Source: Pyrenula massariospora | Taxonomy: Eukaryota > Ascomycota > Eurotiomycetes > Pyrenulales > Pyrenulaceae | Direction of reading: 5' to 3' | Length of the DNA stretch: 64,000 nt | Assembly (NCBI GenBank): GCA_021030905.1 | Contig: JAGFMI010000005.1 | Span: forward strand, 1,488,001-1,552,000 | Part shown: positions 32,178 to 49,685 of the stretch, in pieces | Layout of the letters: every line of letters starts with the position of its first letter | Numbering within the stretch: position 1 is the first letter of the stretch | The notes under the pieces: generated by a model | What the model was told of the DNA's origin: nothing | The model's input: the letters and a program-made list of their open reading frames with translations, nothing else | Databases searched by the model: none | Made by a program: the position numbers and the translations under genes

Positions 32178-32236
32178 GTGGTGTAGGTGCATGCTGTGTA
32201 AGTGCATGTGTTGTAGGTGCATGTATTGTAGGTGCA
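32178..32236 (-). repeat. Minisatellite, left arm (units in antisense)
   Basis: Four units of about 16 bp, each with GTGCAT (GTAGGTGCATG, GTAAGTGCATG, GTAGGTGCATG, GTAGGTGCATA). Read on the minus strand the unit is ATGCACCTACAA-like. It faces the right arm at 32260-32422, with CTCCTACGTGGAG between them. Confidence 0.75.
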
Positions 32237-32259
32237 TACCCTCCTACGTGGAGGTACGA

Positions 32260-32422
32260 GATGCACCCTCCACGAGATGCACCCTCCACGGCATGCACCC
32301 TTCATTGCCATGCACCCTTCATTGACATGCACCCTTCATTGACATGCACCCTTCATTGACATGTACCCTTTATTGACATGCGTCTTTCACTGACATGCAT
32401 CTTCCATTTACATACATCTTGG
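32260..32422 (+). repeat. Minisatellite, right arm (~17-bp ATGCACCC units)
   Basis: About nine units. The best conserved is CATGCACCCTTCATTGA, repeated almost perfectly four times between 32298 and 32370. Two units at the left carry CCTCCACG and those at the right decay to CATGCATCTTCCATTTA. The same core (ATGCACC plus TTC) is seen at 49183-49320, and ATGCA(T/C)CC also starts each unit of the coding repeat at 47485-48000. Confidence 0.85.
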
Positions 32423-46481: not shown

Positions 46482-48006
46482 ATGGAGAAGGTCGTATCCG
46501 TCCTTAGAGTAGCGCTGAATAAACATCCACGTGTATCAGAAAGGATGGACTATGAGACAGAAAAGCTACTTGGCCGGCCGAGTATCGAGTCTTCAGTTGA
46601 GCAGATCGATCTCGAACGATTGACACCTCGGCCGAAGCGCTTCTCTCGAGCCCTGACTTGGATCTGGAGGGTACTAATCCCGGGGCTTATTTTCTGGGTT
46701 TTCGTTAACGTCTCGCTCAAAATATGGCCCTTTTCCCCGTTTCATACCGGCTCAGACGTGAAAATGAGCGGAAAGGTTTCTTGCTCTTGTGGGAACTCCA
46801 TTGCCGAAGCCAAATCTCTTGGATGTAGATTTGATGCTCTAGCCTCAGCTTGGCTTCCTCCTGCGTGTATCGATACTGAATTGAGCGCAGAATTTGATCG
46901 GGCTGGCCCGGAGCCTGACGGTTCGTGGGTGTATTACACCGATTATGACAGGAGTGGGACTTATACACCGGACGAAGTCGCTGCTCTGGCTAACACCGGA
47001 AGATACTATTATAACACTCTGGCCTGGCATTTGGCTCACTGCACTTTCAATTGGCGAAAGGTAGGTTTGTTCTTTCTACCATTCTTTTGTTCACTCTCCT
47101 TGCGTAAATTTAAAGCTAATAATCATCCTGTAGGCCGTACGATCTCGTTATACAGGAGTCACTCTTGAGGCACGTTCTGATACCGAGGCAAGCACCCCCT
47201 TACTTATATTTTTTACAAGATCCAGCTTTTTTAATGTTTATGTCTAGACTCACGTTTTCCATTGCGAGACGATGTTCAAAGACAGGTAAGGATATATTCG
47301 ACGTTCAAGTCGTCGAGGATTCGAAATTTAAAGAGAATTGACCAAGTTGTTTAAGGACTTCACTCGAATATGTCGGCACAGTCTCTATGGTAAGAATGCC
47401 GTTCCCAACCTGCACGTAAGCAGACGATGGCTGCGAGGGGTTGGCTAACTGGACCAGATCACCACTAATGCGGATTGGGAAGAGATGCATGAGGAAATGC
47501 ATCCCACAACTAAAATGCGCCCATCAGAAATGCATCCAGAAATGCATCCAGAAATGCATCCAGAAATGCATCCAGAAATGCATCCAGAAATGCATCCAGA
47601 AATGCACCCATCAGACATGCATCCTGATATGCACCCATCGAATATGCATCCTGATATGCACCCATCAGACATGCACCCATCGAACATGCATCCAGATATG
47701 CATCCTTCGGACATGCATCCTGATATACACCCGTCGAGCGAAATGCACCCTTCGAGCGAAATGCACCCTTCGAGCGAAATGCACCCTTCGAGCGAGATCT
47801 ACCCGTCAAGCGAAATGCATCCGTCAATCGAAATGCATCCGTCAAGCGAAATGCATCCATCAAGTCAAATGCATCCCTCAAGTCAGATGCATCCCTCAAG
47901 CGAAATGCACCCCTCGAACGCAATGCATCCCTCGAGCCAGAACATGCACCCCTCGAGCCAGAACATGCACCCCTCAAGCCAGAACATGCACCCAGATCTA
48001 AGCTAA
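46482..48006 (+). CDS. Membrane protein with two HxxHC motifs and a Met-His-Pro repeat tail
   Basis: Exons 46482-47060, 47134-47187, 47248-47285, 47356-47389 and 47458-48006 join in frame to about 417 residues. A cytosolic amino part is followed by one helix (about 58-80, WIWRVLIPGLIFWVFV), so type II topology is likely. The outer part has CSCGNSIAEAKSLGCRFD, LPPACIDTELSAEFD, then HLAHC (183-187) and HVFHC (213-217). Paired HxxHC after one amino helix is the layout of UstYa/DUF3328 oxidases, but the 'CG-IAEAK-GC-FD' family it matches has no known function to me. Residues 245-417 are tandem MHPE, MHPD, MHPSD, MHPSSE and MHPSSQN units, with about 29 MHP. Such Met/His density suggests copper or other metal binding (inference). 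Intron 2 is GC-AG (GCAAGC). Exon 4 is 34 bp and less certain. Confidence 0.72.
47485..48000 (+). repeat. Coding tandem repeat, 12/15/18/21-bp ATGCATCC units
   Basis: Six perfect ATGCATCCAGAA copies lie near 47530-47603 (MHPE). Then come alternating 12- and 15-bp units (MHPD, MHPSD, MHPSN), then 18-bp units (MHPSSE/MHPSSQ) and finally three 21-bp units (MHPSSQN). All unit lengths are multiples of three, so expansion keeps the frame. All six frames are open through it, which is a side effect of the repeat. Confidence 0.93.
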
Positions 48007-49685
48007 ACGCAGCCAAGCCTTATCTAAAGAACACATGGCTTCGCAAGTTCACCTAAGACGTATCAGGAAACAAGATGGAACGATGGCGAGAATTGAACGG
48101 ACGCTCACAGACACAGATAACCATCCGTCCACCCACATCTCATATGGTTTTCATTCCGTGAGCTTACGATCGGTCACTTTTTTTTTTCTGTTTGAAACAG
48201 CACGTCTTATTCAGTCTCTCCAGCTTGATGATCAAGTCAGCCTGAATAGTTCCCCAACATTCTTTTCGCAGCTCAGAAAATACTATTGAGACGAGGTCTC
48301 CAGCTTATTGACAGAAACGAAAAACCCATGATCTACCTGAAAGAGCGCTGGCATTTTCTATCTAGTTACCGGACTATCTTTGAAATAGAAATCGACTCAT
48401 CCCTTTGAACACTACGCTCTGATCAAGTGCTGAACCGTATGATCCGCAATGTAGCCGAAGTTCGACGCGACTTGAGCTAAGTAGTGATGTAGAAGCTTCA
48501 TCCTAGCACCATCCCACAAGACTTATCACTATTCCCACCCCTCCCAATCCTAAGGTAGATCTGGAGCCAGAGTTGGCGGCACGATAGGGAGATAACATAT
48601 AATCTCCACTCTCCTATGATAAGCCTAACCAACACAAACATACGTTTCATTGTCGGAGCGAGCGAGGTCGATCTTAATAGTTGAAAGCTCTTAGGATATC
48701 TCCAATCGCTTGGAAGCTTCGGCAGAGGTCGTACATGTCTCTATCCTGTGTTATCTCATGAGAATTGAGACCATCTGTGTGACTTTTCTTGCGTCTGAAT
48801 GTACTCACTGCCAAGATAGACAAAAGTCTGGGAAGAAGATGAAGTGGTTAAAGATTTAAAATTCTGATCAATTGAGCATGTTTGTGCCTCAATCGTAAGG
48901 GTACAGGGTATCATAAGCTATATCTGGTAAAGTAGCCTATAAGGGAATTGTATTATCGACATGTCGTTATAAAGAATAGACTGAATAGTTAGTTCTATCT
49001 ATTTAAACCTTCTTAATGCCCTCACATATATATATGTCTTGGCATCAAGTTCAACTATCCGGATATTACTTACAGATAAATTCTGAATAAATCTTAGATT
49101 CTAAAATTCTATATATGATTATTCCGTTTGCTGAGGATTACATTCACATATTTAATATATTGAGAAAAGAATTATATTACGAGAAATGCATGTTGTGGAA
49201 GGTGCATGTTAGGATACATGTCATGAAAAGTGCATGTTATGGAAAGTGCATGTTGTGAAGAATACATAGCGTGGAGGGTGCATGTTAGGATATATGTTGT
49301 GGAAAGTACATATCATGAAGGCGTCAAAATTTAGTCTATATAATAATAACTGAGTATGTGTCGGACTACAAGATTTCCGATTCCGAAGATCGCGACGGAT
49401 AGGAATCGTTTCAGTAAAGATTGGGAAGATATTGATTTATCTTGAACAGCTAGTAAGAGGACAGGATGATCTCATATTTTGATGCCTTTGCCCCATACCC
49501 AAGACACTAGGGCAACACACTCATCAAGCTAGACGGAGATAGAGACACGGGTGCGACTGATCAGCCTCCTGTTGTCCACCATAATCTAGATCGATCCGTG
49601 ACTTGGGCGCTGGCACGCCTAATGGCTCGGGCCGTTCAAAAGCTATGCCGTCTGCAGATCAAGCACTCTTCACGTTCAGGCAGAT
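48007..49685. other. AT-rich intergenic region with a minisatellite
   Basis: No gene. AT content rises between about 48840 and 49180 (for example repeated TATATA near 49026). The repeat at 49183-49320 is entered separately. The rest shows no pattern I can name. Confidence 0.45.
49183..49320 (-). repeat. Minisatellite of ~16-bp ATGCAC units (antisense)
   Basis: About eight units of GTGCATGTTGTGGAAA type. On the minus strand they read ATGCACTTTCCATAAC, ATGCACTTTTCATGAC, ATGCACCTTCCACAAC and ATGCACCCTCCACGCT. The last matches units in the 32.26 kb array (ATGCACCCTCCACG), so the two arrays belong to one family. Some units have decayed to ACATGTA or ATATGTA. Confidence 0.75.

Follow-up and report, generated by a model that had tools for sequence, protein, structure and literature searches.

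A Met-His-Pro repeat tail on a paired-HxxHC membrane protein of Pyrenula massariospora and its possible part in copper handling

The stretch of DNA analysed here (hereafter the window) comprises 64,000 nucleotides of the ascomycete Pyrenula massariospora (contig JAGFMI010000005.1, positions 1,488,001 to 1,552,000) and comes from a 37.8-Mb genome in 33 contigs. On its plus strand it contains a gene of five exons (46482..48006), which join in frame to give a predicted protein of 417 residues and a stop codon. The protein combines a membrane helix and a domain with two HxxHC motifs with a long C-terminal tail of Met-His-Pro (MHP) units. An earlier note on this DNA, made from the sequence alone, had proposed this in-frame union of domain and tail, and a homologous protein that reads across all the junctions agrees with it.

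Gene structure and membrane topology

Exon 1 (46482..47060) encodes a cytosolic N-terminus (by prediction), the membrane helix, the opening, cysteine-rich part of the domain and the first HxxHC motif (HLAHC, residues 183–187). It is followed by the short exons 2 (47134..47187), 3 (47248..47285), which carries the second motif (HVFHC, residues 213–217), and 4 (47356..47389). Exon 5 (47458..48006) completes the domain (ITTNADWEEM) and adds the MHP tail (47497..48003) and the stop codon. Introns 1 (47061..47133), 3 (47286..47355) and 4 (47390..47457) have GT-AG borders. Intron 2 (47188..47247) is of the GC-AG type, with the donor GCAAGC and the end TAG, and is demanded both by the frame and by the orthologues, which read DTE/xHV at this place (the slash marks the junction). 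P0001, a homologue from Zasmidium cellare, spans all four junctions, reading WRK/AVRS, DTE/EHV, KD/RT and VGTVSI/VTTNADWQEMHKEMHPEAMHP; it is a predicted protein too, and was the best substitute at hand for RNA in this check. In the search of the fungus's own genome, exon 1 matched P0001 with 64% identity (E 9.1e-77), and exon 2, which likewise has its counterpart in P0001, gave a 71% match over 21 residues.

The best membrane-helix windows, by hydropathy, lie within residues 57–82. There are five lysine or arginine residues in the 15 positions before residue 64 and one in the 15 after residue 82, and because of this charge bias around the helix the N-terminus is predicted to be cytosolic and the tail lumenal. 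The window protein is thus a predicted type II membrane protein, as first supposed, its domain and tail both facing the lumen. A helix at residues 33–69 in the AlphaFold model of P0001 matches the single membrane helix.

The repeat tail and its coding character

The tail is 169 residues long and contains 29 exact MHP triplets, the first at residue 249, in good agreement with the roughly 170 residues and 29 triplets estimated before; together with one IHP and one IYP (two substitutions of M by I and one of H by Y) there are 31 units. They are arranged in the ordered blocks already described, namely six MHPE units, then MHPSD, MHPD and MHPSN, then MHPSSE and MHPSSQ, and finally three MHPSSQN units. 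The composition is dominated by 30 Met, 30 His and 32 Pro residues.

This composition bears on one alternative reading, in which the tail is a fused substrate of the type of the ribosomally synthesized and post-translationally modified peptides (RiPPs), its repeated cores being processed by the attached UstYa-like domain. Known dikaritin cores sit between dibasic (Kex2-type) sites, whereas the tail has a single Lys, a single Arg and no dibasic site. UstY homologues do act on precursor peptides that typically have multiple cores (PMC12048977), but we regard a fused substrate as most improbable.

Exon 5 contains 30 copies of the motif ATGCAY, with each of the 29 spacings divisible by three and, except for the first unit, unit lengths of 12, 15, 18 or 21 bases. 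Across the 31 ATG-CAY-CCN units, it is the two synonymous positions that vary, with only three deviations elsewhere; histidine is encoded by CAT in 18 cases and by CAC in 12, and proline by all four of its codons. Between successive units, 23 of the 29 changes in the ATG CAY CCN core are synonymous (binomial p 1.6e-14 against 4/27), a value that assumes changes spread evenly over the codons and that, copied units not being independent, is strong and indicative rather than exact. Because all spacings are multiples of three and the changes between units are biased towards synonymous ones, the tail is, to judge from its sequence, coding and under constraint, which argues against its being a noncoding repeat downstream of the gene, one of the outcomes that the earlier note had named as refuting its proposal.

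Two intergenic arrays in the window share the core of the tail, with spacings mostly of 15, 16 or 17 bases and no common reading frame. The first (32181-32399), with an ATGCACC core, lies downstream of an OPT transporter gene, 15 kb from the MHP tail. It is an imperfect inverted repeat, whose left arm has 15-base units on the minus strand and whose right arm has 16–17-base units on the plus strand, and its folding as single-stranded DNA beats that of shuffled sequences (z -3.2); a terminator-like site was not found in this array. The second and weaker one (49183-49254, extending to about 49320) lies 1.2 kb past the gene and consists of degenerate units of ~16 bases (GTGCATGTTRTGGAAR), with the ATGCAC core on the other strand, as the reverse complement. 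No dispersed copies of either array were found by a DNA search, which skips simple repeats. The two arrays may be derived from the tail or share a common origin with it.

Their presence gives some ground for seeing in the tail a minisatellite that has expanded into the final exon, where it would be tolerated as a functionless, disordered extension, the more so as triple ATGCAY arrays (at the spacing searched) are nearly absent elsewhere in the genome: 33 of the 34 matches, some counted on both strands, lie in the window, in exon 5 and at 32187-32349. Such an origin without function appears improbable in view of the synonymous bias and the frame-keeping spacing in exon 5, and of the distant orthologues that have similar tails with other linkers.

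Tails of the close homologues

Residues 1–255 of the window protein, used as the query, retrieved 14 close homologues. Whether orthologues have the tail was a check that the earlier note had pointed to, and a C-terminal tail with 7–30 MH dyads, in each case after the second HxxHC motif, is present in six of them: P0001 from Zasmidium (9 dyads), P0005 from Acarospora (10), P0009 (22), P0010 from Glarea (7), P0013 from Fulvia (23) and P0014 (30). The four named fungi span the Dothideomycetes, Lecanoromycetes and Leotiomycetes (NCBI taxonomy). Linkers vary among the orthologue tails (MHPSD, MHPSGE, MHPDN, MHSNE) while the MH dyad is constant, being retained even in P0010, the repeat of which (MHSNE) is without proline. 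A search with the tail alone, in which 3074 candidates with lengths of 0.55–1.75 times the query were scored from 5.77 billion proteins, gave two matches, P0013 and P0014, both from the same HxxHC family. In P0002, from Pyrenula (Eurotiomycetes), an MHP stretch, MHPEMHPSFQNHPQMHP, follows the membrane helix and precedes the domain, and is likewise predicted to be lumenal; the gene model of this protein is broken at the HxxHC pair.

Close to their predicted C-termini, P0003, P0006, P0007, P0008 (labelled partial by its source), P0011 and P0012 have one or two MH dyads, and the predicted protein P0004 has none. After the sequence HPxxSAV, the proteins P0006, P0009 and P0011 read RQ..., with P0009 coming back to MHPDS 18 residues on; in P0005, SAV runs straight into MHPDN. 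We infer from these sequences that the RQ... stretch is an intron into which some gene models read, and the tails are therefore probably under-counted. In most of the close homologues that appear to be tail-less, we think, the gene model stops early or enters an intron.

The wider family and its His-rich tails

A profile search, in which 7998 candidates were scored, found 149 proteins, of which 120 were listed. Where an organism is named, it is a fungus as far as the names were recognised, and no relatives were found in the viral contigs searched. Two or more HxxHC motifs are found in 118 of the 120 listed homologues, and in 111 of them the motifs are 30 residues apart. In alignment A3, made of 62 listed proteins hand-picked for spread, both motifs are invariant in every row. 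The window protein, with the same domain and motifs, is a member of this family and has its elements CxCG, GCxxD, AWLPPxC, WHxAHCxxxWRK and HxxHC, its nearest rows being P0013 (79% identity over 113 columns) and P0001; it differs from most of the listed homologues, whose tails are short. Two homologues bear source names such as 'Ig-like' or 'EF-hand domain-containing'. P0016 (Aspergillus alliaceus, 425 residues) has four HxxHC motifs, either because the domain was duplicated in tandem or because the gene prediction merged two genes, and P0064 (Sarocladium strictum, 500 residues), named a SAM-dependent methyltransferase by its source, has a long stretch after the HxxHC domain and is either a fusion or a mis-joined gene model.

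The phylogenetic tree was built with a quick search on 139 columns, which left many deep forks open. Its 122 rows are the listed homologues less P0002 and P0105, which have no two motifs 25–46 residues apart, plus the window protein and three genomic relatives. The rows whose tails have at least three MH dyads, seven in all, fall within a single clade of 16 rows (97 in the Shimodaira-Hasegawa-like approximate likelihood ratio test, SH-aLRT). This clade also contains seven rows with one or two dyads and two with none, one of which, P0017, ends three residues past the motif. Outside it, four rows have one or two dyads.

Tails of another kind, rich in His, occur in 17 of the 122 rows on other branches (for example, HEGHEGGHEGGHGGGHEGGHGG in P0113 and HGHEHGHEHGHGGH in P0114). 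They are scattered over the tree, with nine label changes, at least five of which are forced by starred branches, and tails of this kind were apparently gained or lost on more than one occasion in the family. C-terminal tails of this sort (HGHEHG, HEGHEGG and the like) were noted in P0067, P0068, P0083, P0084, P0091, P0094, P0104, P0107, P0109, P0113, P0114 and others.

Such His-rich, Met-poor tails would fit zinc equally well. A different role for the Met and His residues of the window protein is conceivable, be it the binding of zinc or nickel, a methionine oxidation sink for a radical enzyme, or pH sensing or sorting; Met could, indeed, scavenge oxidants from an O2-activating site. We rate roles of this kind as unlikely. 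An oxidation sink needs no His beside each Met, whereas the MH dyad persists through changes of linker and, in P0010, even through the loss of Pro.

Relation to UstYa/DUF3328 proteins

The domain had been linked in the earlier note to the UstYa/DUF3328 oxidases (PF11807), to be checked with the hidden Markov model of that family. Contrary to that expectation, the window protein does not match PF11807, or any other Pfam family, at E<=1, and the 95 PF11807 matches in its genome do not include its gene. Weak matches to PF11807 were found for three of 13 close homologues (best E 0.08) and, at E<=1, for 22 of the 62 wider homologues (best 3.1e-4; cut-off not shown). When A3 was aligned by hhalign with seven UstYa rows from the same genome, both motifs were aligned over 51 columns with an E of 0.0024 and a probability of only 12%.

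In the AlphaFold model of P0001, the blocks of the domain have predicted local distance difference test scores (pLDDT) of 94–98. A strand (154–158) is followed by a helix with the first motif (159–179), a helix with the second motif (190–201) and another strand (209–214). The last five blocks score 39–63, which is compatible with a disordered tail. A UstYa paralogue has the same strand-helix-helix-strand order but a poor model (mean pLDDT 51.9). No solved structures were found by sequence search for either the domain of the HxxHC family or the UstYa paralogue. Like the DUF3328/UstYa proteins CctR, ApnU, AprY and UstYa/b, the window protein has two HxxHC motifs and, by prediction, a type II topology and a lumenal domain; the order of elements around the motifs is alike in the two models, of which that of the UstYa paralogue is poor. 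Unlike them, it falls outside the Pfam model, and its family has its own CxCG and GCxxD...W elements and the prevailing 30-residue distance between motifs; a Met-His tail is absent in the seven aligned UstYa rows (some of them partial).

The relatives of the window gene in its genome often lie close to UstYa genes. We counted 19 family loci, the window gene included, as the 22 genome matches less three fragments from exons 2 and 5 of that gene; in each of the other 18, a single open frame, read on the strand of the match, contains two HxxHC motifs. Eleven of the 19 loci lie within 6 kb of a non-overlapping PF11807 match over the cut-off, compared with 0.3 expected at random places, which is a generous standard of comparison, as tandem duplication or cluster-rich regions may be common to the two families. 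The 19 loci form 11 clusters, six of which have a PF11807 match within 6 kb. The list of PF11807 matches used for this count omits two that pass the cut-off only together with their neighbours. HxxHC and UstYa genes are intermixed, for example, at C11:2991329-2999991, C5:987274-993307, C1:35113-43360 and C28:1575151-1580394. DUF3328 genes are known to occur in groups, three of them in the cyclochlorotine cluster (PMC12435403), and the HxxHC genes beside UstYa, which are outside Pfam coverage, may be part of biosynthetic clusters. Of the proposed relation to UstYa/DUF3328, what stands is a distant kinship, suggested by the weak profile match, the motif layout, the predicted order of secondary structure and the neighbourhood of the relatives; membership in the Pfam family does not.

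No clear biosynthetic cluster surrounds the window gene itself, as judged from a Pfam scan of ten neighbouring open reading frames (ORFs). These encode an OPT transporter, a HET protein, a 2-hydroxyacid dehydrogenase, an MFS transporter, a TauD dioxygenase and a DUF3176 protein, with one C2H2 finger match below the cut-off and three ORFs without a match. The position of the gene far from UstYa and its orthologues in several classes, as in a housekeeping gene, would suit a protein that is mainly a copper store or detoxifier in the lumen or at the surface, with the tail sequestering surplus copper in vesicles or at the wall, the domain acting as an anchor or cuprous oxidase and no hand-on of copper to biosynthesis. 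The ~60 Met and His ligands per chain, far above the need of two site coppers, would suit it as well. However, there is no copper gene among the ten ORFs scanned, the shortest tails, with only 7–9 dyads, are small for storage, and the HxxHC pair is retained in the tailed clade (the gene model of P0002 breaks there). We consider a role mainly as a store rather unlikely.

A possible copper-collecting arm

The HxxHC pairs of UstYa/DUF3328 proteins, considered from the outset to be metal ligands, form a copper site in the DUF3328 hydroxylase CctR, which is a homodimer with two Cu per monomer at HxxHC (PMC12435403). CctR uses O2 and requires copper as Cu(I), changes in HxxHC abolish its activity, its C-terminal domain is lumenal, and its authors postulated an accessory factor supplying electrons or Cu(I) (PMC12435403). 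DUF3328 enzymes require Cu(I) in an oxidising lumen (PMC12435403).

For the tail, the likeness to known systems is one of composition. CopI, CueO, CTR1 (in its N-terminus) and CopA/PcoA have copper-handling segments rich in Met and His; these proteins are cupredoxins, multicopper oxidases or transporters. The tail differs from all of these in being a regular MHP repeat on an HxxHC domain. CopI, a protein termed a copper buffer, has a His/Met-rich segment that binds Cu(II) without a stable structure (PMC13308877), and Met-rich mimics bind Cu(I) (PMC11840665). The tail likewise places Met and His in a probably flexible part of what would be an exported copper protein.

Taken together, these findings are most simply read as a copper enzyme with a copper-collecting arm, the tail, which is predicted to lie on the same side of the membrane as the active site. 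The lumenal domain would be distantly related to the copper-dependent oxygenases of the DUF3328/UstYa type, with the two HxxHC motifs on neighbouring helices holding the copper that activates O2. The disordered lumenal tail, with its ~30 Met-His dyads, would capture Cu(I), and also Cu(II) via His, in the secretory pathway and maintain a local pool of reduced copper. Hypothetically, it would then pass copper to the HxxHC pair of the same subunit or of a partner and so serve as a built-in copper loader or buffer. Binding of copper by the domain is expected from the biochemistry of DUF3328, and binding by the tail from the behaviour of Met/His-rich peptides. We give this reading, in which a copper oxygenase of the lumen collects and buffers Cu(I) for its active site by means of its tail, about an even chance of being correct.

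Several results weigh against it. The domain falls short of the PF11807 model, and copper at its HxxHC pair is therefore proposed by analogy. In contrast to its relatives, the window gene has no UstYa match closer than 770 kb, and it is the only tailed member found in its genome, as a Met-His tail in frame was found at none of the 18 other family loci. Eight of the 14 close homologues are, as predicted, without a long C-terminal Met-His tail, and some of these may truly be tail-less. Within the 16-row clade, the label 'three or more MH' is scattered (six changes, with 56 of 500 shuffles as low), which we put down, although we cannot prove it, to cut-off gene models. Neither kind of tail is carried by 87 of the 122 rows in the tree, so the family at large needs no tail. 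Finally, the low pLDDT in the tail may stem from the few aligned rows there.

The copper-collecting reading can be extended to the whole clade, in at least three classes of fungi, as having its own copper relay with a lumenal Met-His arm that loads Cu(I) into the binuclear site within an oxidising compartment, His-rich arms having arisen repeatedly for a similar job; we offer this extension tentatively, as possible rather than probable.

Novelty and significance

The earlier note had known of no such tail in this family, and the literature agrees as far as it was covered: in the titles and abstract openings listed for open-licence papers we found no report of such a tail, which is not proof of absence, and the passages of PMC12871659 and PMC5006380 consulted contain nothing on tails. 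In broad terms the enzyme type is already known; what is new to us is the fused arm and its distribution over several classes.

The HxxHC family, missed by Pfam models and often found beside UstYa in this genome, may hold unrecognised biosynthetic enzymes. It was only in 2025 that DUF3328 enzymes were shown to depend on copper, and the route by which Cu(I) reaches them in the oxidising lumen is an open question (PMC12435403), which a natural fusion of an HxxHC domain with a Met-His arm makes directly testable. If the extended reading is true, with His-rich arms doing a similar job in other branches, fused metal-buffer tails would be a general answer to the problem of Cu(I) delivery that the authors of the CctR study left open.
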